This document shows positions 24,999 to 61,854 of a DNA stretch of 64,000 bases, piece by piece. Position 1 is the first letter of the stretch. The number at the start of each line of letters is the position of its first letter. The position numbers and the translations under genes were made by a program. The DNA is taken from positions 1-64,000 of IMG/VR virus record IMGVR_UViG_3300042879_002476; one strand, given 5' to 3'. The stretch comes from a virus. The notes below the pieces were generated by a model. It was not told the DNA's origin. It saw nothing but the letters and a program-made list of their open reading frames with translations, and did not search any database.

Positions 24999-26960
24999 AT
25001 GTCATTTGTATTTAAACCCATAGAACCTGCATACGTAACTAAAATACCATATTATGTAAATAAGTTATGGCAGATAAATAATGGTAACATAGCTAATTTA
25101 ACTAGTTCTACGTCTCAGTACGTAGATGCAGATATTAGTATGTCAATTTACTATGGAAAATATTATTCTACACCATGGATAACTACTGCTTCTGAAGTAT
25201 CTACCAACCATGGAGAATATGCTAGGAATATTTGGAATTCTACTTATAATTTATACTATAGAGACTTCCAAAATGCTCCATACAATCACCACCCGCAAGG
25301 AAATATAGGAGTAGAAACAAGAAGAATTACAGATGAAATTCATGTATATTCTATACCTAATAAATTAATAGGTTTAGGTATACAACCCGGGTCATTTGAA
25401 ATGGAATCTGGCAGCTTTTACTTTTTTGATGATGGTAATGGTAATATATTAGGTTATGACACGACCTTAACTTCAGGAGAAATAGATTCATCATCATTCA
25501 ATCCTAAATTAAAAGATTTTTTTTATTGTTCATTTTATTTTGATGATGGGTATCGATACAATAATACTAGAGCTACATTTAAAGAACCTTCATACGGTAC
25601 ATTAGGAAAATTAGTAAATCACAATTATGATTCGGATAAAGGGGTAGCTGCCCCTACTCATATACCTAAAAGTCCGGTAGCTACTGTGAACAATGTATTT
25701 GTTAGAGATCATACAAATGATCCTAATACCGTTATCTCATACATGTCGCAATATCATTTAGATTTTTCCGTATCTTCCGTCGGGTCCATGTATGTTCGGA
25801 TTCCGCATACTAAAGAATTGAATTTTGATACAAATCAAGATTTTGCAGTATCATTTTGGATTCGGCAACCCGATGGCGATGGCATCGCACCCACTCCTGT
25901 TTTAGGTGCGGCTAGCGGTTCTGTAGAATTAATTTCTAAATCCGGATTAGTTAGAAAGTATATAATTCCTGTAGGTAATAGAGCTAGGCAATTAGATCCG
26001 AATACCGATGCATCGTTATATGATCATTATGTTGATACTGTTGATTATGTTCGAGGACCGTACCCCTTTAAAATAGAATTAATACGTAACGGATATAGTG
26101 GCAACGGGAAAATTAGATTTTCTAGAAGTGACGGTACAATTGCCACGGCCGTAACATCATCTAGTACTTTAGACGATGATGTTTGGTCGTTAATCACGTG
26201 TCAAAAATCGGGTAGTGTATTGCAAGTTTGGATAGGAACTACTAATGCGGGAGAAATATCGCAATCATGTTTGACTACGGTTTCAAATTTTTCTGATGTT
26301 CTAATAGGATGTAGAGGTGATTTGCTTACTACTAGTTCGATTTCTATTAGCGACTACGATACTTCCCCGGGAGGATGGAGTACTGATGGATCAACACAAT
26401 TCGGCGGAAAGATGGGCCCGATACATTTTTTTAATAGAGCATTATCAGCTGCTGAGATAGCAGACATGGCTACTATTTCTACGTCTAATAAAAAATATCA
26501 ACGAGGCATCTACAATAATAGGTTCGGTAATATCATTTATGATCAAGGCCAAATAATTTGGACTAACCCCACCTATTTATCCGGTCCTGGAAGAGTATTG
26601 CCGGGCCAGGGAACCTCTGCTAGATTTGATTATTTAAAATTTAGAAGTACTAAATTAATAACCACTAATGAAGCTATTTGTGTTGCTGGGGCTACTGAAT
26701 TAAATATGACCACTAACCCCACAATACTAATCAATAAAAATGGAAAATGTAATCCTGGTATAGGCATTAATGAAACCGGTATAGGAAATGAAGATGGGGA
26801 ATGTTATTCATTTGTTACAGGATCAAATTTTTCTCCTTATATAACTACAGTAGGTTTATATAATGATGCCGGAGAATTATTAGTAGTGGGTAAACTCTCA
26901 GCGCCGTTACGAAAACCTACTAATTGTGATACTATCTTTGTTGTGAAGTGGGATCAATAA
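24999..26960 (+). CDS. Tail fibre/baseplate protein with LamG-like domain
   Basis: A 653-residue structural protein. A LamG/concanavalin-like sandwich spans about residues 265-490 (FAVSFWIRQPDG, ELISKSGLVRKY, WSLITCQKSGSVLQVWIGTTN, FGGKMGPIHFFNRALSAAEIADM). This domain usually binds carbohydrate, suggesting contact with the cell surface. The C-terminus repeats the VGLYNDxxELL module of the previous gene product. The gene overlaps nothing important downstream if the resolvase begins at 26978. Confidence 0.75.
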   Translation: MSFVFKPIEPAYVTKIPYYVNKLWQINNGNIANLTSSTSQYVDADISMSIYYGKYYSTPWITTASEVSTNHGEYARNIWNSTYNLYYRDFQNAPYNHHPQGNIGVETRRITDEIHVYSIPNKLIGLGIQPGSFEMESGSFYFFDDGNGNILGYDTTLTSGEIDSSSFNPKLKDFFYCSFYFDDGYRYNNTRATFKEPSYGTLGKLVNHNYDSDKGVAAPTHIPKSPVATVNNVFVRDHTNDPNTVISYMSQYHLDFSVSSVGSMYVRIPHTKELNFDTNQDFAVSFWIRQPDGDGIAPTPVLGAASGSVELISKSGLVRKYIIPVGNRARQLDPNTDASLYDHYVDTVDYVRGPYPFKIELIRNGYSGNGKIRFSRSDGTIATAVTSSSTLDDDVWSLITCQKSGSVLQVWIGTTNAGEISQSCLTTVSNFSDVLIGCRGDLLTTSSISISDYDTSPGGWSTDGSTQFGGKMGPIHFFNRALSAAEIADMATISTSNKKYQRGIYNNRFGNIIYDQGQIIWTNPTYLSGPGRVLPGQGTSARFDYLKFRSTKLITTNEAICVAGATELNMTTNPTILINKNGKCNPGIGINETGIGNEDGECYSFVTGSNFSPYITTVGLYNDAGELLVVGKLSAPLRKPTNCDTIFVVKWDQ

Positions 26961-26977
26961 TTATAAATAAATATGTT

Positions 26978-27394
26978 ATGAAAAGACGTTTTAAAAATCA
27001 AAAGCAGGCTAGTTTAATATTAGGATATAAGAGTGGTTTAGAAGAAAAAATATCTGAACAACTCACCTCTCTTAATATTGATTTTACTTACGAGACTGAA
27101 AAAATTTATTATATGCAACCTGCTAAAAAAAGGTCATATAAACCCGATTTTATTAAAACTAAAAAAGATGGTAATAAACTGTTTATTGAAACTAAAGGCA
27201 GACTTACTGCTAGCGATAGACAGAAACATGAATGGGTAAAAGATCAATATCCTGCTTTAGATATTAGATTCGTTTTTACTAATTCTAATACTAGAATATC
27301 TAAAAATAGTAAAACTACTTATGCCGATTGGTGTAATAAACGAGGATTTATTTTTGCTGATAAAGAGGTTCCTAAAGAGTGGTTAGAAGAATAG
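26978..27394 (+). CDS. T7 endonuclease I-like Holliday-junction resolvase
   Basis: A 138-residue protein (T7 gp3 is 149) that follows the T7 endonuclease I pattern closely: YKSGLEEKISEQL with E22, YKPDF with D57, and FIETKGRL with E71 and K73, which correspond to T7 E20, D55, E65 and K67. Further matches are LDIRFVFTNSNTRI and the C-terminal ADWCNKRGFIFADK-VPKEW. The enzyme cuts branched DNA before packaging. I chose the ATG at 26978, because the longer frame from 26948 overlaps the upstream gene and adds only ten residues without counterpart. T4 itself uses the unrelated gp49, so this is a non-orthologous replacement. Confidence 0.92.
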   Translation: MKRRFKNQKQASLILGYKSGLEEKISEQLTSLNIDFTYETEKIYYMQPAKKRSYKPDFIKTKKDGNKLFIETKGRLTASDRQKHEWVKDQYPALDIRFVFTNSNTRISKNSKTTYADWCNKRGFIFADKEVPKEWLEE

Positions 27395-27435: not shown

Positions 27436-28365
27436 ATGATATCAGAACAAAAATCTATATTAAATACTTTATTAGGAGCTCCCAAATTAGTTTCCGGAGG
27501 TTCTGAGGGACTGTATAAATGTCCTTTTTGTAATCACCACAAAAAGAAACTACAAATACATTATGAATTAGGACAATTTAATTGTTGGGTTTGTAATACC
27601 AAAGGAAGATCTTTAATTACTTTGTTAAAGAAACTAAAGGTTACAGATCCGAATATATATGCAAAATTCAAATCTAATAAAAATAATGTTTTAATCCGTA
27701 AGGATGGATACCCCCAAGATATACCCGATAAAGAGCTTGTATCACTACCTAAAGAATTTAAACCTCTATATATTAAAAGGGACGATCCTGACTACAAACA
27801 CGCAATTAGGTATTTATTTAAGAGAGGATTAACGGTACAAGATATATTAAAATATCGAATAGGATATTGTGATAAAGGCCCGTATTCGGGTATGGTAATC
27901 ATACCATCATATGATGCGAATAACCAATTGAATTTTTTTGTTGGTAGGTCATATTATAAAGACGCCACTATGAAGCATAAAAATCCAAACGTGAGTAAAA
28001 ATATAATTGGATTTGAAAATTTAATTAATTGGAAATTACCAATAGTGTTAGTTGAGGGTGCATTTGATGCAATTTCAATTAAAAGAAATGTGATACCGTT
28101 ATTTGGTAAAAAAATATTACGTAATTTGCGAGATAAAATTTTATTAGAAAAAGTTAAAGAATTATATTTGTGTTTAGATAATGATGCTAAACAAGACGCA
28201 TTAAAATTAGCAGATTATTTTTCTAAATTTGGAGTTGCAGTATATTTTGTAAATTTAAAAGAAAAAGATCCTAATGAAATAGGATTCCATAAAATACATA
28301 CTATCATGAATGAGACCGAAACTTTTGGGTTTGAAGACATGATTAAAATGAAATTAGCATTATGA
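27436..28365 (+). CDS. 61: DNA primase, T4 gp61-like (CHC2 zinc finger plus TOPRIM)
   Basis: A 309-residue primase (T4 gp61 is 342). The N-terminal zinc finger has C29-C32 and C50-C53 (CPFC...CWVC), the TOPRIM domain has the glutamate of VLVEGAFDA and the aspartates of LCLDNDAKQDA. It would make RNA primers for lagging-strand synthesis together with a gp41-like helicase, which is not in this window. TTTG at 27396 and TACTTTAG at 27422 upstream resemble a Bacteroidetes host-type promoter, consistent with earlier expression than the flanking tail genes; this is tentative. It overlaps the next gene by 4 bases. Confidence 0.88.
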   Translation: MISEQKSILNTLLGAPKLVSGGSEGLYKCPFCNHHKKKLQIHYELGQFNCWVCNTKGRSLITLLKKLKVTDPNIYAKFKSNKNNVLIRKDGYPQDIPDKELVSLPKEFKPLYIKRDDPDYKHAIRYLFKRGLTVQDILKYRIGYCDKGPYSGMVIIPSYDANNQLNFFVGRSYYKDATMKHKNPNVSKNIIGFENLINWKLPIVLVEGAFDAISIKRNVIPLFGKKILRNLRDKILLEKVKELYLCLDNDAKQDALKLADYFSKFGVAVYFVNLKEKDPNEIGFHKIHTIMNETETFGFEDMIKMKLAL

Positions 28366-31300
28366 TTAAATTAAATTCGAGTATAAACACGGTTTCTAAA
28401 ATTATACACGCAGGCGATATTCATATTAGAAATTTAAAACGACATACTGAGTATAAAATACAATTTCAAAAGTTTTATGAAAAAATAAAACAAATTAAAG
28501 ATGATAGTACGATCATCTACATTGCTGGCGACGTAGTTCATACTAAAACGGATATGAGTCCGGAATTAATTGATATGGTTAGTGATTTTTTCATATCATT
28601 AGCCGATATAGCACCCACGGTTGTAATTGCAGGAAATCATGATGCTAATCTAAACAACCCAGATAGATTGGATGCTCTATCGCCTATTATAGCCAATTTA
28701 CAACATCCTAATATTTTTTATTTAAAGGATACCGGTTTATATGAATTGGGTGATATTGTATTCTCAGTAATGTCTGTTTTTGATGAAAAAGAAAAATATA
28801 TTTTAGCGTCTGATATACAGACTAATAAAAAGAAAATAGCTTTGTTTCACGGACCCATAACTAATTCAGTAACCGGAGTAGGATTTCAAATACAAGGGCA
28901 CGTCGATATTGATTTATTTACTGGATTTGATTATGCATTAGCAGGTGATATACATCAACTACAGTATTTAAATGCAGAAAAGACTATTGCATATTGTTCA
29001 TCGTTAATACAACAAAATTACGGTGAAACGTATGATAACCATGGATTTTTATTGTGGGATTTAATTAATAAGACCAGTAGTTTTTATCATCTAGATAACG
29101 AATACGGATTTCATACTTTGCATATTCATAAAGATGAATTAGTGCCGTACAATAGAGGAATAATTACACAAAATTCTAGAGTACGGTTAAAAGTTACGGA
29201 TTCCACAGATGTCTATATTAGGGATGAGTCTGCTAAAATTAAAAAAGAATTAGGGATTTCTGATTTGCCTATTAACAAAGCAGAAACGGTTTCAATAAAT
29301 TCCAATATCGATTTAATAAAGTCGAATACCATTAATGTTAGAAATATTGAAACGCAAAATAGTTTAATTAGAGATTTTTTAAATTTAACTTTAAATTTAT
29401 CTTTGCCCGATGGTATATTAGATAAAGTGTATGAAATAAATAAAAAGACTAATTTATTGTTATCGGATAAAGATGAAATAATTAGAAATGTTATTTGGAA
29501 ACCTAAAAAGTTTGAATTTTCAAATATGTTTTCATATGGAGAAAACAACTTAATAGATTTTTCTAGTTTGCGAGGAATACAAGGTTTATTTGGTCCCAAC
29601 GCATCCGGTAAAAGCAGTTTATTAGATGCTCTATGTTTTTGTTTATTTGATACGACATCCAGAGCTTATAAAGCAGATCAAATCATTAATACTAAAAAAG
29701 ATTGGTTTTCATGTAAATTTAATTTTGAAATTGCAGGTACCGATTATTTTATTGAAAAGCGAGGTACAAAAACATCGTCAGGTAAAGTCAAAGTAAATAT
29801 AGATTTTTGGTGTGAGGGTGATAACGGAGACCGTAAAAACTTAAACGGTGAACAGCGTAGAGACACTAATTCCATTATTAAATCCTATATAGGAAGTTAT
29901 GAAGATTTCACATTAATGTGTTTATCAATGCAAAATAACAATACTAATTTTGTAGATAAATCACAAACGGAAAGAAAAGAAATATTAGCTAAGTTCTTAG
30001 ATTTAAATATTTTTGAATCGTTATATGCATTGGCCAATACTGAATATAGACGTATACAGGCTATTTTAGAAAATGCTAATTCAAAAGAAATAGAATTACA
30101 AATAAACGATTTAAAAGACTCAATTTCTAAAAAAACTTTTGATTATGATACTTTGAATAGTAATATTATTTTATTAGATACTGAAATTGCAAGTAAAAAT
30201 AATGATGTTTTAGAATTATCAAAACAAATTCAAAATGTTAAGACAATTGATATTGATGCTGCTAAAAAAATGGAAGTTCAAATACAAGATAATATATCTA
30301 AATTAGAAGAATCCGTTAAATTTAATAACCAATTGTTTTCTAAAACTAAAAAAGAATTACAGCAAATTGACTTACAACTTTCTAATATTGATGTTAATAA
30401 AATGTTAGAAGCTGAAAAAGAATTTGAATTTAATAAAAGTAAATTAAAGTCTCTCAATTCTAAATTAGAAAAATTAAAAATAATTACAGCTAATAAAAGT
30501 GATAAACTAAAAAAATTGGAAGAGCATGAATATGATCCTAATTGTACATACTGCATTAATAATGTATTTGTAAAAGACGCTTTACAGACTAAAAAGGAAT
30601 TGGAATCGGATTTAAAGGAATTGACTATTTGCCAAGAAGATTTGAGACTCACTGAAAATATTGTAAATTCATTTAATTCTTATCATGAAACTAAACGCAA
30701 ATATGAAACTTTAAATTCTAAAAGGAATCTAGTTTTTATTGATTCGCAAGGTACCAATATTAAAGTGTTATCCGAAGATAAAGAACTATCGGCAACTAAA
30801 ATTGAATTACAAAAAATACAATTACTCATACGTGAATACTATGAAAATGAATCTATAATTTTAAATAACAATACCATTACCGAACAAATAGAATCCGTAA
30901 AATCTAAAATTAAAAGTTTACAATCGGAAACTCGATTATTAAATGCTGATCTATTGCAGTTGTATTCAGATATTAAAGTAGCTGAATCTAAAATAGACAA
31001 TTTAACTGAGAAATTAGAAAAAACCAATGCACTTCTAAAAGAGAAAGCTGCATATGAATATTATCTTATGGCTATGGAAAAAGATGGTATTTCATATCAA
31101 TTGATGTCTAGAATTTTACCTAAAATAGAAAATGAAATAAATAGTATTTTATCTAACTTGGTAGATTTTAAAATCATATTAAATACAGACGGAAAAAATA
31201 TTAATGCTTATATAGTATATGATAATTTATATTGGCCATTAGAACTTTCATCAGGGATGGAACGGTTTATATCGTCTATTGCAATACGAGTCGGATTAAT

Positions 31301-31523
31301 CAATATATCTAGTTTGCCTAAACCTACTTTCTTTGCTATTGATGAAGGGTTAGGAGTATTGGATTCTAATAATTTAAATCAAATTTATTTACTATTTAAT
31401 TACATTAGAGATATATTTAATTTTACTTTAATAATTTCGCATATTGATATGGTCCGTGACATGGTCGACCACAATATTACTATAGAGTCCAAAAACGGAT
31501 TTAGTAAAATTGATTTAACATAA
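28362..31523 (+). CDS. 47-46: Fused Mre11/Rad50-type nuclease-ATPase (T4 gp47-gp46 in one chain)
   Basis: A single 1053-residue frame holds both subunits of the recombination nuclease that in T4 are separate gp47 (339) and gp46 (560). Residues about 1-330 are the calcineurin-like phosphodiesterase with all expected motifs: AGDIH (D19, H21), IAGDVVHT, AGNHDAN, FHGPI and LAGDIHQ. From about residue 380 follows the SMC-like ATPase: Walker A GPNASGKSS near 410, a long coiled coil with a CTYC zinc hook near 728, signature LSSGMERF near 962 and Walker B TFFAIDEGLGVLD near 990. The complex resects double-strand ends for recombination-dependent replication. The frame is uninterrupted, so the fusion does not depend on a frameshift. 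Confidence 0.93.
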   Translation: MIKLNSSINTVSKIIHAGDIHIRNLKRHTEYKIQFQKFYEKIKQIKDDSTIIYIAGDVVHTKTDMSPELIDMVSDFFISLADIAPTVVIAGNHDANLNNPDRLDALSPIIANLQHPNIFYLKDTGLYELGDIVFSVMSVFDEKEKYILASDIQTNKKKIALFHGPITNSVTGVGFQIQGHVDIDLFTGFDYALAGDIHQLQYLNAEKTIAYCSSLIQQNYGETYDNHGFLLWDLINKTSSFYHLDNEYGFHTLHIHKDELVPYNRGIITQNSRVRLKVTDSTDVYIRDESAKIKKELGISDLPINKAETVSINSNIDLIKSNTINVRNIETQNSLIRDFLNLTLNLSLPDGILDKVYEINKKTNLLLSDKDEIIRNVIWKPKKFEFSNMFSYGENNLIDFSSLRGIQGLFGPNASGKSSLLDALCFCLFDTTSRAYKADQIINTKKDWFSCKFNFEIAGTDYFIEKRGTKTSSGKVKVNIDFWCEGDNGDRKNLNGEQRRDTNSIIKSYIGSYEDFTLMCLSMQNNNTNFVDKSQTERKEILAKFLDLNIFESLYALANTEYRRIQAILENANSKEIELQINDLKDSISKKTFDYDTLNSNIILLDTEIASKNNDVLELSKQIQNVKTIDIDAAKKMEVQIQDNISKLEESVKFNNQLFSKTKKELQQIDLQLSNIDVNKMLEAEKEFEFNKSKLKSLNSKLEKLKIITANKSDKLKKLEEHEYDPNCTYCINNVFVKDALQTKKELESDLKELTICQEDLRLTENIVNSFNSYHETKRKYETLNSKRNLVFIDSQGTNIKVLSEDKELSATKIELQKIQLLIREYYENESIILNNNTITEQIESVKSKIKSLQSETRLLNADLLQLYSDIKVAESKIDNLTEKLEKTNALLKEKAAYEYYLMAMEKDGISYQLMSRILPKIENEINSILSNLVDFKIILNTDGKNINAYIVYDNLYWPLELSSGMERFISSIAIRVGLINISSLPKPTFFAIDEGLGVLDSNNLNQIYLLFNYIRDIFNFTLIISHIDMVRDMVDHNITIESKNGFSKIDLT

Positions 31524-31531
31524 ACATTTGG

Positions 31532-31560
31532 ATTATCATATATTTATAGTATATGATAAT
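31532..31560 (+). promoter_or_regulatory. Putative late promoter in a perfect 11-bp inverted repeat
   Basis: TATTTATA at 31541-31548 ends 4 bases before the ATG at 31553. ATTATCATATA (31532-31542) and TATATGATAAT (31550-31560) are exact inverted repeats around TTTATAG, so the start codon itself lies in the right arm. Confidence 0.6.
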
Positions 31561-34500
31561 TAAGAAACAGCGCACGTATTTAGGATTAGATATATACCCG
31601 TCGTATATAACTGATACATCCCCGACCTCCGTAGATTATCTAAAACTAGATAGCATGCCTTCAGAATTAACTGCGGGCAAAAACGTGTTAAAAATATTAG
31701 GAAATACTAACGTTTTCAAACAAGGTTCTCCTATTTTAGTGGAAGTATTAGACAGTCGCCGAAATACCATTTATGTAGAATTTCCTAATTATTTCGATTC
31801 TTTAAAAAGAAGGTTGATAGTAATTAACATAACTGAAGACACGGCTCCCGGTCCTGCATTAATTACTATTTGTTCGGTACTAAACGAAAATTTAGTACCT
31901 TTAGAATTCAACAATACGTTTAACTTTAAGTGGCAAGCTATTATTAATGTAGCGCCTTTTAAATCTAATACAACCGAAATTGTTTATATAGACCCTCCTA
32001 CAGTTGAATTACGAACTCGAGTTCGACCGTATGTTACTACTTCGTTTCGTAATAACGAGCAAATGATAACTAAGGAATATGGGGACTATGAATATTTAGA
32101 TTTTAATTTTGACGATTACGTTGGCAGCAATGATGGTGCGAGTAGTATATTTCAAACACAAGATGCGAATACGGTTTTAAATTCATTTACTAATGCATCT
32201 ATAACATCTTTTGATAGGGATAATGTTTTTTATTTAAAGCCAGAAAATTATTCTGCTAAAACAATAAATAGAAATTATCCGATAATCGAGCCTAGTAAAG
32301 ATTTTTATGTTTCATTAGGTTCGAATATAATAGGAAATTACAATTCGTTTGGCACTTGGGATCAATCCGGAAATACGATAGGCACTGATGCTAATCGAGG
32401 CAATATATTAATACGAGGAATTGCAGGGTCTTATGTAGGACGTCCCGTAAATACGATGCCAGGCAATTATTATTTAGTTGCCGTTGATGTGAGTCAAAGT
32501 TTAAGCACGTCATATGATATTTCGGCTGCATTGGGATATAATGAATCTAGAAATTCCGGTAGTATATCGGAAAATGTACGCGTTTCTATAAATGAAAATG
32601 CGAGTACTAATACTTGGGAAACTTGTTATGCAGTAGTCAGAGCCAGCGATGCTGGGAATTATTTGTGGTTATTTTTCGGTGGTACTGCTGGTAGTATAGA
32701 TAACGTACGCGTGTTTCCTATAAACGGTATAGGCACTCCGGATTTTAAATTAGAAACGGATTTAATTGGAGGGTTAATAAAAGTAAACCGTCCTAATATT
32801 AGTCCGCAAACAGCATCCGGATTAACATTGTATAACACGGATACTGCATATAGATCGTATATAAATTTTTTATTGCGAGATAAAAATGCAGCTGCCAACG
32901 GTGCATTTACATATAATTTAGTAAAAGAATCGGAACTATCAAATCCTACCACATTTACAATAAATAGGCATAAAATAGAAAGATTTACTTCTAGAGCACA
33001 GATATCTCAAACGAATTTAAATAATACATTCGTAGATTCATACGTACAGGCAGCTTCTTTTGTAGATCCGTACGGAGCTAGTGTGCTATTAACCATTGTC
33101 GAAGGGCCTAATAATACGTTTTATGGTCCTATATTCGCTGGAGGAGCGGGGAACGGCGGTGGTATTTTTAGTTATAATACAGACACTAACGTATTAAACA
33201 CTGAACATTATTTTAATACCAGTAAATTTTCAGGAAAAGAGCCTTCAACAAAGTTTTTATATTTAAAAGGCGGGTCAAACCCTGGAATGTATGGTACTAC
33301 TAATTTTGGAGGTAGGTTTAATTCCGGATCTTTATTTAGATTCGATCCGCAATCTAAAATTGTAACTAAATTACATGACTTTGGATTAACCAGCGGATCT
33401 AGTACATTTACTACTAATAGTGGTTGGTTTCCATATGGCAGTTTAATGCAGGCTTCTAATGGTTTATTATATGGCACCACCGCAAATCCGTCACCTGGAG
33501 GGCCATATGGCACCGTATATAGTTTTAATACTAGTTCTAATGAACATAAAGTATTCCTTTTAAATGGAGGAGTTGATGCTGCAAGATTAATTGAATCCGG
33601 AGGATTTTTGTTTGGAGTTAAGGGATATCAAACTGCACAGGGCGATATTGTTAAAATAAATCTATCTACGGGTACCACTTCTAGTTTTGCACTTAATGTC
33701 ACTCAAGGTAAAATACCTTCCGGGTTAATAATGGGAAGTGATGGTTATTTATATGCTACGACCTTTACCGGGTCCGCTTCATCCGGTACTGGGGGAACTA
33801 TACTTAAAGTAGATTCCGGAACCGGTGTTATAACTAAATTATTTGATTTAGATACTGTATTATCCGGATCGGAAGCGGAACGAGAGTTATATGAGGATTC
33901 CGGGCATTTTTATGGAATGTGTAATGCCGGAGGTCAGTTTTCTAAAGGTACTGTGTTTAGATTTACCACCGGGTCTGGAGGAACGTTTGAGGTGTTACAT
34001 CATTTCTCAGGAGGCAGTGATGGTATCGGAGCAAAATCTAATTTTATTAGATTAGGAAATTCTTTATACGCAAACACTACGAATGGCGGTACCTCGAATG
34101 CCGGTACTATTTTTAGATTAGATAGAATTGGATTGAATAGGCCTTTCGTGTTTCAAGAAGCCGGGACTATTTATCATCATAACGCAATATTACCCAAACC
34201 CATACCAGCAACTAGTTCCTTATTAATAGATTATCCTAGATGGACCGGACCGGTTAAATTGAACGAAAATGATTTATATTCTATTGTAGAGTTAGAAATT
34301 AAAGATTTAGACCCCGTGACCGGAGATGTATCTAAATTAAAATTGTCTGCTAAACCTCAAGGATTGAAAGGAGAATTTGTAGATTTAGGTGTATACTCTA
34401 CAAAACCGGTAGATATATTAATAGATAATAATTTTGTTAATCACGTACATTATTCAGATTCTCCCTATAGATTGGCAGGATATTTTAAGCCAGTTATATC

Positions 34501-36502
34501 CTCGTTTTCCGATTCATCATTAGAAAAAAATTCATTTAAACAACTATCATTTGCGACCGGATGGGCAACGGCGTCTGTAACGGAATCAAACTATTTTAAA
34601 GGAAATCAAACTTTTGCGCCTAGTATGTCTATAAAAGATGCTCCTGAATTAAACTTAAATAGAGGAGCATGTTTTAGAATTGAATTGCAGAATACTCCTA
34701 CTGAAAATATGTTAGGATGCATTATTTATACTGCGAGCGCCATACCTCCTGGATTAACTAATTTAAATTTATGGGAACAGTTTAGTTATAATTTATATTC
34801 AGCTGCACCGTTTCCGATTGGAATGGATATTACTGCAAGTGATTGGTATACTAGCAGTTTAGGCTATAACATTAATAAATTTAATTCTATTTTAGTGTAT
34901 TCTGGATTAGTAACTAAAACCGGATCTATATTAGCTCCTGAAGATATTTACGCGATTAGCGATAAAATATCAAACGCATGGGCTATTAGCGGTTCTGGTA
35001 ATACTGCTTCTATTGCAATAGGACACCCATTAACTTTTAATAATAAACTAGGATGGATCACTGATACATATTTTATAACTAGTTCAGTAGCATCAACCCA
35101 ACCACTATATCCTGCAATATTTTTTGAGTATAATACTATACATGACTCTATATTTAGTAGCAGCATTAGTACTACCCGGCCGCATATTGTAGAAGTTTCT
35201 AATGTTAGTTGTCGTGAAATAGGCGATAGAGATTATATGATAGATACATATTGGGATTCGGAAATTGGAAATTATGGATACAATACGCAAATAGCAGGAG
35301 TGCCGTATACTCCTAGTAACACTGATAAATTAGCAGATTCAGTTAAACTAACAGTATATGACGGAGTTACCGGTATTACTAGTAGTTTAGGTTCAGCATA
35401 TAAAAATAAAAATGCGGTGTTATTTAAAACTGCTGATTCATATAAATTTTATAAAAACGTTCCTTATATAATAAGTTTTAATGCGTTTAGTCAGATAAAT
35501 GAAATACGAGGCGTAGACCCTGCCCCGGTAGTAAGTAATCTAGGATTCCCCTTTGTTGGCGCTCCCGGATGGGGCAACAACGGATCTGGATGGACTGAAA
35601 ATACCGGACAAAAATGGAAAGCATATAACTTTGGCAGTTCGACCTCAGGATATATACGACTTAATGATATTGATTTCTTTGCTAATACCAGATATCAAGT
35701 TAAAGTAACTACAGGAGCGTTTACCTATTTACCTGAATATAATATAACTACATTATCCGTTATATCCGGATCCGTGACTTCGTCTATATCTAATATTCGA
35801 CCTAATACCACGTATACGTTTTATTATACCCATGGTACCACAGATACTACCGGACCAAAAATACAATTAGATTCTACATTCACAGATTCAAATCACACAA
35901 TTTATTTAACTGGAGTAGATATTAGAAGATATGATTACGATTTTAAATCTAATACCAATTTAAGTTCGGTACTACCTTCAAGTTCAAAATTAAAAGTGTA
36001 TGGTATTAATACAAATTTTGGAGTACCTTTTGCAGATCAATTAACAACTGCAGATCCTGGAGAGTTTATAGGTGAATTGGAACAGACGTTAACATACGGG
36101 CAATCCGGTGAGACTAAATACTTCGGTCGTGTAGAAATGGAATTCGCTCCGGAAACTGAAGGATTCGGTAATATAGGATTTGAAACAGATTTAGGAGCGG
36201 AATGGTATATCAGTGATATTTCAATTAGACCTAAAGATAGAGTAGGATTAACTCCGGCATCTACTAGATTATTTATTAAAATACCTAATGATTTAGTAAA
36301 TAAAAAGTTAACTTTTAAAATTGAATATTTGAATGATTCAAACTCTAAAGCCGTGTACAATACATTATTAAACGATGTAATGTTTTCTAATAAAGACGAA
36401 TCAATATCAGGAATAAAAGGAGTTTTAGATTCTTCTATGAATTCAGTTACGGAAGATGACACTACTAGCACCGGACCTAACTCAGACCCACCGACTACTT
36501 AA
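31553..36502 (+). CDS. Giant tail fibre protein with beta-propeller repeats
   Basis: A 1649-residue structural protein, the longest in the window. Residues about 520-860 hold roughly six repeats of the type LYGTT..GG....GT(V/I)F.(F/Y)(D/N)...G....L..F (for example YGTTNFGGRFNSGSLFRFD and YANTTNGGTSNAGTIFRLD). This matches the TIGR03803-like repeat, which I expect to form a beta-propeller. The parts before and after are beta-rich sandwiches, some with carbohydrate-binding-like features (SWETCYAVVRASDAGNYLWLFFGG, YFGRVEMEFAPETEGFG). Position next to other fibre genes suggests a host-recognition fibre. There is no chaperone or protease domain at the C-terminus. Confidence 0.75.
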   Translation: MIIKKQRTYLGLDIYPSYITDTSPTSVDYLKLDSMPSELTAGKNVLKILGNTNVFKQGSPILVEVLDSRRNTIYVEFPNYFDSLKRRLIVINITEDTAPGPALITICSVLNENLVPLEFNNTFNFKWQAIINVAPFKSNTTEIVYIDPPTVELRTRVRPYVTTSFRNNEQMITKEYGDYEYLDFNFDDYVGSNDGASSIFQTQDANTVLNSFTNASITSFDRDNVFYLKPENYSAKTINRNYPIIEPSKDFYVSLGSNIIGNYNSFGTWDQSGNTIGTDANRGNILIRGIAGSYVGRPVNTMPGNYYLVAVDVSQSLSTSYDISAALGYNESRNSGSISENVRVSINENASTNTWETCYAVVRASDAGNYLWLFFGGTAGSIDNVRVFPINGIGTPDFKLETDLIGGLIKVNRPNISPQTASGLTLYNTDTAYRSYINFLLRDKNAAANGAFTYNLVKESELSNPTTFTINRHKIERFTSRAQISQTNLNNTFVDSYVQAASFVDPYGASVLLTIVEGPNNTFYGPIFAGGAGNGGGIFSYNTDTNVLNTEHYFNTSKFSGKEPSTKFLYLKGGSNPGMYGTTNFGGRFNSGSLFRFDPQSKIVTKLHDFGLTSGSSTFTTNSGWFPYGSLMQASNGLLYGTTANPSPGGPYGTVYSFNTSSNEHKVFLLNGGVDAARLIESGGFLFGVKGYQTAQGDIVKINLSTGTTSSFALNVTQGKIPSGLIMGSDGYLYATTFTGSASSGTGGTILKVDSGTGVITKLFDLDTVLSGSEAERELYEDSGHFYGMCNAGGQFSKGTVFRFTTGSGGTFEVLHHFSGGSDGIGAKSNFIRLGNSLYANTTNGGTSNAGTIFRLDRIGLNRPFVFQEAGTIYHHNAILPKPIPATSSLLIDYPRWTGPVKLNENDLYSIVELEIKDLDPVTGDVSKLKLSAKPQGLKGEFVDLGVYSTKPVDILIDNNFVNHVHYSDSPYRLAGYFKPVISSFSDSSLEKNSFKQLSFATGWATASVTESNYFKGNQTFAPSMSIKDAPELNLNRGACFRIELQNTPTENMLGCIIYTASAIPPGLTNLNLWEQFSYNLYSAAPFPIGMDITASDWYTSSLGYNINKFNSILVYSGLVTKTGSILAPEDIYAISDKISNAWAISGSGNTASIAIGHPLTFNNKLGWITDTYFITSSVASTQPLYPAIFFEYNTIHDSIFSSSISTTRPHIVEVSNVSCREIGDRDYMIDTYWDSEIGNYGYNTQIAGVPYTPSNTDKLADSVKLTVYDGVTGITSSLGSAYKNKNAVLFKTADSYKFYKNVPYIISFNAFSQINEIRGVDPAPVVSNLGFPFVGAPGWGNNGSGWTENTGQKWKAYNFGSSTSGYIRLNDIDFFANTRYQVKVTTGAFTYLPEYNITTLSVISGSVTSSISNIRPNTTYTFYYTHGTTDTTGPKIQLDSTFTDSNHTIYLTGVDIRRYDYDFKSNTNLSSVLPSSSKLKVYGINTNFGVPFADQLTTADPGEFIGELEQTLTYGQSGETKYFGRVEMEFAPETEGFGNIGFETDLGAEWYISDISIRPKDRVGLTPASTRLFIKIPNDLVNKKLTFKIEYLNDSNSKAVYNTLLNDVMFSNKDESISGIKGVLDSSMNSVTEDDTTSTGPNSDPPTT

Positions 36503-59832: not shown

Positions 59833-61854
59833 ATGCCAATATTCTATATAGACTCAGGCAGTTTTAATAATTTGCAAGTAACTGGTAGCTTACTAGTAAC
59901 GGGTGAAATATTTGGTACCTCGAGTTTGGCAACTACAAGTAGTCATGCTTTAACAGCATCATTTGCTCCAAATTATGTTTTAACCAGTGCAACGAGTTCG
60001 TTTATACAAAATAATCAAACTAGTTCTTTTTACACAGGATCTTTTACTGGTTCATTTACAGGAAGTCTACAAGGTACCTCAAGTTGGGCAACCAACGCTA
60101 TATCATCATCAAGACCAATAGCTGTAACTGGATCAACTATATATTCAACAGCACCGTTATCAACAGCAACCCCTAGTACTGATAATAATATATTTTTAGG
60201 TGATGGCGCTGGTAATAATGCATCAGGCTCTTCATATTCAAACTTTATAGGTTACAATGCTGGTCTTAATGCTACTAACGCAGGCGGTTCTAACTTTTTA
60301 GGTCGAGGTGCTGGTTATGGTGCAACAAATGCCAACGATTCTAACTTTTTAGGTTATAACGCTGGTTTAGATGCTACTGACGCAAACATTTCTAACTTTT
60401 TAGGTTATAGAGCTGGTTATGCTGCAACAAACGCATTTGGTTCTAACTTTTTAGGTTATAGTGCCGGTGATGGTGCAACTAATGCATACGAATCAAACTT
60501 TATAGGCCCAAGTGCTGGTGCGTCTGCAACTAATGCCAACGATTCTAACTTTATAGGCCTAAGTGCTGGTGCATCTGCAACTAATGCCAACAATTCTAAC
60601 TTTTTAGGTTTATATGTCGGTACCGGAGCAACAAATGCAAACAATTCAAACTTTTTAGGTTTCTATGCCGGCAACGCAGCAACTGATGCATACGAATCAA
60701 ACTTTATAGGTTTATCTGCCGGCTACGAGGCATTGAACGCCAACAATTCTAACTTTTTAGGTAGTAGTGTCGGTGTGTCTGCAACTAATGCCAACAATTC
60801 TAACTTTTTAGGAAAGAACGCTGGTTTTAATGCTACTAACGCAGGCAATTCTAACTTTTTAGGTAATAATGCTGGTAGTGATGCAACAGAGGCAAATACA
60901 TCAAACTTTTTAGGTCCAAATGCTGGAAATGGTGCAGTGAGTGCATCTTATTCTACATTAATTGGATATCAAGCAGGATACACACCAACAGCCGGTACTA
61001 GTGTCAAAAGCAATAATATTATAATAGGTACAAATATTACTTTGCCTACCAATACTCAAGACTCAATCAATTTAGGTGCAATTATATTTGCAACTGGTTC
61101 ATATAGTACACTTGCCGGAAATCCATTTTCCGGATCAATGTCCAATGGTAGGGTTGGTATTAATAAAGTAACCCCATCATACACTTTAGATGTATCTGGA
61201 TCTGGAAATTATAGTAATGGATTAAACGTAACTGGCTCATTAAGGACTTCAGGATCTATAGAAGCAACTGTAGGATTAGGTGTAGAAAATTATAAATCAC
61301 CTAATAGATGGGCATTATTATCAACGACGGGATGTCCTTCTGTAACAGGACAATCTCTTACCTCAGGATCAGCAAATAGTATAACAACAATATTGGTACC
61401 TTTTATAACTAATAAAACTATTACTGTATCATCAATGTCATTTGAATCTACAACTACCCCATCACCTTCTACTGCTTCTGTAGGAATATATGCAGCTGAT
61501 CAAGTAACTTGTAGACCTACAACATTAATCACTTCCATGAGTAATATTCCTATACCATCAAATAGCGTTTACTCAGGATCATTAACAACCGGGCCAGTAA
61601 CTCTATCTCCAGGTTTATATTATACAGCTTTTCAGCATAGCGGTAGCGCAACTATAACATTTCGAAGCATACCAACAGCAAATACTATGAATATTATAGG
61701 ATTAACTACTCCCGGAAATTCAACTGTACCTAACTATTATGCTGGTGTTAGAGCAGGTGGACCGGCATCATTACCTGCTTCAACATCATCATTCAGCACA
61801 ATGAATCCTTTAGGCGGACTTAACCCTCCATGTATATGGATGTTAATTAGCTAA
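59833..61854 (+). CDS. Tail fibre/adhesin with 17-residue tandem repeats
   Basis: A 673-residue fibre protein. After an N-terminal shaft segment (SFTGSFTGSLQGTSSWATNA) come 14 exact-length tandem repeats of 17 residues with consensus SNFLGxxAGxxATNAxx, residues 136-373, then a partial copy STLIGYQAG. The periodic small and hydrophobic residues resemble the left-handed beta-roll of YadA-like heads. The following NGRVGINKVTPSYTLDVSG is a typical linker in phage fibres, often before a chaperone, but the C-terminal 200 residues do not show the S74 peptidase signature. It is probably a receptor-binding fibre. Confidence 0.82.
   Translation: MPIFYIDSGSFNNLQVTGSLLVTGEIFGTSSLATTSSHALTASFAPNYVLTSATSSFIQNNQTSSFYTGSFTGSFTGSLQGTSSWATNAISSSRPIAVTGSTIYSTAPLSTATPSTDNNIFLGDGAGNNASGSSYSNFIGYNAGLNATNAGGSNFLGRGAGYGATNANDSNFLGYNAGLDATDANISNFLGYRAGYAATNAFGSNFLGYSAGDGATNAYESNFIGPSAGASATNANDSNFIGLSAGASATNANNSNFLGLYVGTGATNANNSNFLGFYAGNAATDAYESNFIGLSAGYEALNANNSNFLGSSVGVSATNANNSNFLGKNAGFNATNAGNSNFLGNNAGSDATEANTSNFLGPNAGNGAVSASYSTLIGYQAGYTPTAGTSVKSNNIIIGTNITLPTNTQDSINLGAIIFATGSYSTLAGNPFSGSMSNGRVGINKVTPSYTLDVSGSGNYSNGLNVTGSLRTSGSIEATVGLGVENYKSPNRWALLSTTGCPSVTGQSLTSGSANSITTILVPFITNKTITVSSMSFESTTTPSPSTASVGIYAADQVTCRPTTLITSMSNIPIPSNSVYSGSLTTGPVTLSPGLYYTAFQHSGSATITFRSIPTANTMNIIGLTTPGNSTVPNYYAGVRAGGPASLPASTSSFSTMNPLGGLNPPCIWMLIS
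60238..60951 (+). repeat. Fourteen 51-base in-frame tandem repeats
   Basis: Fourteen units of exactly 51 bases encode SNFLGxxAGxxATNAxx. Units vary in sequence (for example SNFIG or SNFLG, ATN or ATD), so the array is old or diversifying rather than a recent expansion. Confidence 0.92.

Follow-up and report, generated by a model that had tools for sequence, protein, structure and literature searches.

Proteins in which Mre11 and Rad50 are fused were described by Yoshida, Claverie and Ogata in 2011, in Mimivirus (i.e., R555), a Bacillus phage, plasmids, bacteria and eukaryotes (PMC3175470). Besides R555, twelve more fusions were listed, one of which belongs to Bacillus phage 0305phi8-36 (PMC3175470). 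In R555, the GDxxD motif is changed to GDxxH, and an Asp residue is found instead of His206 (P. furiosus Mre11 numbering) (PMC3175470). Environmental homologues of R555 were enriched in viral fractions, and their scaffolds also carried genes for phage primase and T7-gp3-type endonuclease; the inference made at the time was that R555-like fusions are carried by aquatic phages near genes of these two types (PMC3175470). Within those environmental data, the fusion was confirmed only for a few long sequences (PMC3175470). The same study proposed that fusion had been recurrent and argued that the order of the fused parts fits the known complex (PMC3175470).

The first-pass annotation of the sequence analyzed here set a single-chain protein against the separate subunits of other systems. 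The subunits are indeed encoded by separate genes in T4 and in the T5-like, SPO1-like and cyano-T4-like phages that we examined. The fusion itself is not new, given the 2011 report of Mre11/Rad50 fusions, including a phage one (PMC3175470), and dozens of relatives in IMG/VR. Judged by the published description of R555, the protein very likely belongs to the Mimivirus-R555-like fusions that aquatic viruses carry. It shares with R555 the domain order (i.e., nuclease N-terminal to ATPase) and has the primase and T7-gp3-type endonuclease neighbors found on the R555-homologue scaffolds, while R555 is longer (1351 aa compared with 1053 aa) and its coiled coil is as long as those of cellular proteins, compared with a short coil here.

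Reading frame and domain organization

The stretch of DNA that we analyzed (here, the window) comprises bases 1-64000 of a 66,390-base IMG/VR virus record, which is probably a fragment. The features of the locus are as follows.

26948..27394, + strand: phage endonuclease I (T7 gp3 family, Holliday-junction resolvase; PF05367, E 1.3e-45)
27436..28365, + strand: DnaG-type primase, 309 aa (phrog_47, E 3.8e-45)
28362..31523, + strand: Mre11/Rad50 (SbcD/SbcC; gp47/gp46) single-chain fusion, 1053 aa (one open frame; Pfam and PHROGs matches; same single-frame fusion in IMG/VR relatives and Mel-JY01)
28362..29351, + strand: Mre11/SbcD/gp47-like nuclease and capping region of the fusion, residues 1 to ~330 (Metallophos; hhalign to the gp47/D12 alignment; invariant residues)
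29352..29516, + strand: helix-loop-helix-like stretch (residues ~331-370) and joint (residues ~371-385, RNVIWKPKKFEF) (hhalign to the C-terminal end of T4 gp47; conserved joint motif)
29496..31520, + strand: Rad50/SbcC/gp46-like ATPase with a short coiled coil and a CxxC zinc hook, residues 379-1053 (AAA_23; phrog_77; hhalign to gp46/D13)

The fusion ORF begins with ATG and continues without interruption to its end, and the description of one uninterrupted Mre11-like and Rad50-like frame was borne out by matches to both halves. The N-terminal half carries a Pfam Metallophos domain (residues 13-199; E 2.3e-12, above the cut-off) and aligns with the gp47/D12 alignment in hhalign (E 8.8e-24). The C-terminal half carries AAA_23 (residues 387-591; E 1.6e-15, above the cut-off), matches the SbcC-like subunit phrog_77 of PHROGs (residues 276-1051; E 1.6e-50) and aligns with the gp46/D13 alignment (E 1.2e-39). 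The SbcC, Rad50 and SbcD families of NCBIfam also matched the fusion, all under their curated cut-offs. A profile search of the PDB also matched E. coli SbcC (E 2.5e-28) and SbcD (E 6e-06; both from 6s6v), Thermotoga Mre11/SbcD (E about 1e-15) and archaeal Rad50. The E. coli proteins differ from the fusion in being separate subunits with much longer coils. The homologues from T4 (gp47/gp46), T5 (D12/D13) and SPO1-like phages share with it full-length profile homology of both halves, the CxxC hook and the short coil, but are encoded by two separate genes.

The window is a viral contig of metagenomic origin that comes without reads for checking, so the joined frame might be taken for an assembly or sequencing error in a phage that really has two adjacent genes. 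We give this explanation a negligible probability. A stop or frameshift hidden at residues 330-380 is excluded because independent contigs of IMG/VR relatives, Mel-JY01, more distant phages and ten further contigs all read the same joint through in one frame; in addition, the residues of the joint are themselves conserved when 33 fusions are aligned (mean identity per column, 56%). The observation of a genuine single-chain Mre11-like and Rad50-like protein is confirmed.

Conserved residues of the two halves and of the joint

All five phosphodiesterase motifs reported for the nuclease half are present (I, GDIHIRN at residue 18; II, GDVVH at 56; III, GNHD at 91; IV, FHG at 162; V, GDIH at 195), but only motifs I, III and IV are canonical. 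Motif II reads GDxxH instead of GDxxD, and motif V reads GDIH instead of GHxH, with an aspartate replacing one metal-ligand histidine; both are the substitutions described for R555, and both retain plausible metal ligands. The nuclease residues D19, H21, D57, H60, N92, H93, D94, H163, D196 and H198 are invariant in the 33 aligned fusions. Given GDIH and GDxxH, the nuclease specificity could differ from that of canonical Mre11.

The altered motifs II and V could also mark an active site that has changed so far that canonical end-processing activity is lost, which would leave the fusion to act chiefly as a DNA tether driven by ATP, or to fill some other role. This is rather improbable in our estimate. 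Every altered position is still a plausible metal ligand and is invariant, and the substitutions are not specific to fusions because some separate phage homologues have them too (i.e., GDxxH in SPO1-like and Staphylococcus phages and GDLH in T5-like D12 homologues).

The ATPase half contains all of the motifs of its class (Walker A, GPNASGKSS at residue 411; Q-loop, Q524; zinc hook, CTYC at 728; signature, SSGMER at 963; Walker B, AIDEG at 992; H-loop, H1027), and K417, Q524, C728, C731, S964, G965, D994, E995 and H1027 are invariant in the same alignment. The initial description of a full Rad50-type ATPase with a zinc hook thus holds for the motifs and the hook, but "full" overstates the length, as each arm of the short coiled coil has about 130-160 residues, the size seen in phage gp46.

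Between the two halves, residues 331-363 or so align with the end of T4 gp47 in the gp47/D12 comparison, and the stretch before the joint (up to about residue 370) may correspond to the helix-loop-helix by which Mre11 docks on the base of the Rad50 coil. The conserved joint sequence (RNVIWKPKKFEF) starts at residue 375 and includes invariant W379 and P381 (33 fusions). It follows the helix-loop-helix-like stretch and carries a conserved RN-x-x-W-K-P motif.

Relatives and evolutionary history of the fusion

A tblastn search yielded 173 relatives in IMG/VR, of which the best 80 were kept. Both halves lie in one frame in all of these best 80 of 173 relatives, save one that is cut by the end of its contig (L071). 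The search for the same fusion in other phages was also successful outside IMG/VR. Microcystis phage Mel-JY01 encodes it in a single frame, downstream of a primase gene; its protein (WWT39521.1) bears the annotation "AAA domain containing protein" and has a full-length identity of 39.8% to the window fusion. Identity between the window fusion and the untruncated single-frame copies (from the best 80 of 173 IMG/VR contigs and Mel-JY01) is 38-44%. Single-frame fusions were also found in the 735-kb uncultured phage LR756501, in Tenacibaculum phage PTm1 and in all of the ten further distant contigs. The fusion is widespread in aquatic phages. Six short peptide patterns, which reach close relatives only, confirmed none in bacterial genomes, and no plasmid relatives were found at E 1e-10. 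Besides its fusion, the 735-kb record (L083) encodes an AAA_23 protein of 566 aa as a separate product, and Metallophos has three further matches there.

The lone exception to the single frame is LR756508 (L082, a 484-kb uncultured phage), in which an insertion of about 0.9 kb splits the gene. This insertion (L082 5692-6609) lies just after motif V. It contains an ORF of 305 aa, in which some cysteines resemble those of a zinc ribbon and a TnsA-like endonuclease domain was matched (PF08722, E 5.8e-06). An intein was rejected, as the frame is broken; the insertion is perhaps a mobile intron, and no Rfam intron matched it.

We built one tree for the Rad50 halves, with 22 rows, and one for the Mre11 halves, with 21 rows. 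In both, the fused proteins all fall on one side of a supported branch (100/99 and 98/96, respectively), with eight separate phage homologues, among them those of T4, T5 and SPO1-like phages, on the other. Both trees sampled phages, with cellular SbcCD and R555 outside the sample, and in the Rad50-half tree the program flagged long branches for the three distant fusions. Within this small sample, the sequence trees of both halves are consistent with a single fusion event in the phages covered. Because of the flagged long branches and a sample that has neither cellular SbcCD nor R555, they are not at odds with the 2011 proposal of recurrent fusion (PMC3175470). It is conceivable, although we lean against it, that all of the sampled tailed-phage fusions descend from one ancient event and that the joint, conserved (as RN-x-x-W-K-P in the main group) and structurally engaged, fixes the coupling of nuclease and ATPase in the chain, rather than being a loose, repeatedly formed tether. 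Full-length phage sequences and genome context are now given for this family of fusions.

Gene neighborhood and predicted function

The stop codon of the primase gene overlaps the start codon of the fusion gene (ATGA), and a primase gene is located directly upstream of the fusion in nearly all of the related loci with enough flank. The endonuclease I gene occupies the same slot in many related loci. Mel-JY01 differs in two respects: a small ORF lies between its primase and fusion genes, and its resolvase slot holds a gene for a GIY-YIG protein (L081 6265-6777), where the window has T7-type endonuclease I. This suggests that nucleases are exchanged beside the primase-fusion pair.

Metallophos and AAA_23 each match the 190-kb Mel-JY01 record, titled as a complete genome, just once, in both cases within the fusion; no separate gp46/47 or other SbcC/SbcD match was found elsewhere in it. 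The genome also encodes RecA, PolB, a gp41-type helicase and clamp-loader proteins, in addition to terminase and T4-like capsid proteins. Since the 66-kb record of the window gave no RecA match, we took the recombination context from the relatives.

We rely on several lines of evidence in predicting, with considerable confidence, that the gene encodes a fused SbcD-SbcC (gp47-gp46) enzyme of the R555-like kind that would act in end resection for recombination-dependent replication and repair. The single frame, the conserved active-site and ATPase residues, the profile homology to gp47 and then gp46, and the linkage to primase and resolvase genes all support an SbcCD-type enzyme. The proposed role in recombination is supported by Mel-JY01, in which the fusion is the only match to SbcC and SbcD and accompanies RecA, PolB and the gp41-type helicase. 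By homology with SbcCD and gp46/47, two chains would form a dimer held together by their N-terminal nuclease domains. On ATP, the ATPase lobes would close and take hold of a DNA end, and the coils would be linked at their tips through the zinc hook. The DNA-end nuclease activity of Mre11-Rad50 complexes is ATP-regulated and Mn2+-dependent; under such ATP control, the nuclease would then nick or resect the end to produce a 3' single strand for a RecA-type recombinase of the phage, and resection would feed recombination-dependent replication and repair. We infer catalysis, the dimer geometry, the resection role and the pairing of each nuclease domain with the ATPase of its own chain or of its partner.

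The enzyme may further participate in the degradation of host DNA. T4 gp46/47 is annotated as required for this process as well as for recombination, and on that basis the fusion might be dedicated to attack on host DNA or to counter-defense, not to phage replication. We consider such a dedicated role improbable, as primase and resolvase genes are conserved partners of the fusion, which indicates a part in replication and recombination; one role need not preclude the other. The resection enzyme that we favor leaves the understanding of what Mre11-Rad50 does unchanged. According to the first-pass annotation, a fixed 1:1 fusion constrains the architecture of the complex and could give a model enzyme. 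This suggestion is reasonable; a compact single-chain Mre11-Rad50 of 1053 aa could ease structural work because the stoichiometry of the subunits is fixed.

The window also carries terminase, portal, major head protein and baseplate wedge genes, and its source is likely a large myovirus-like phage. Two large ORFs flank the operon (24999-26960, 653 aa; 31553-36502, 1649 aa), and in many IMG/VR loci the fusion is bordered by stretches related to them. Neither ORF had a confident PHROG match, and the longer one also had no Pfam match; they are possibly tail or fibre proteins. A tandem repeat array with a basic unit of 51 bases (60236-60926) lies inside a 673-aa ORF (59833-61854) that had no PHROG match. 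At 4196-5170, a tmRNA gene (RF00023, 94 bits; tag GEEKSSFTFEDAMSFVGADYAVAA) is located between genes for tRNA-Arg and tRNA-Glu.
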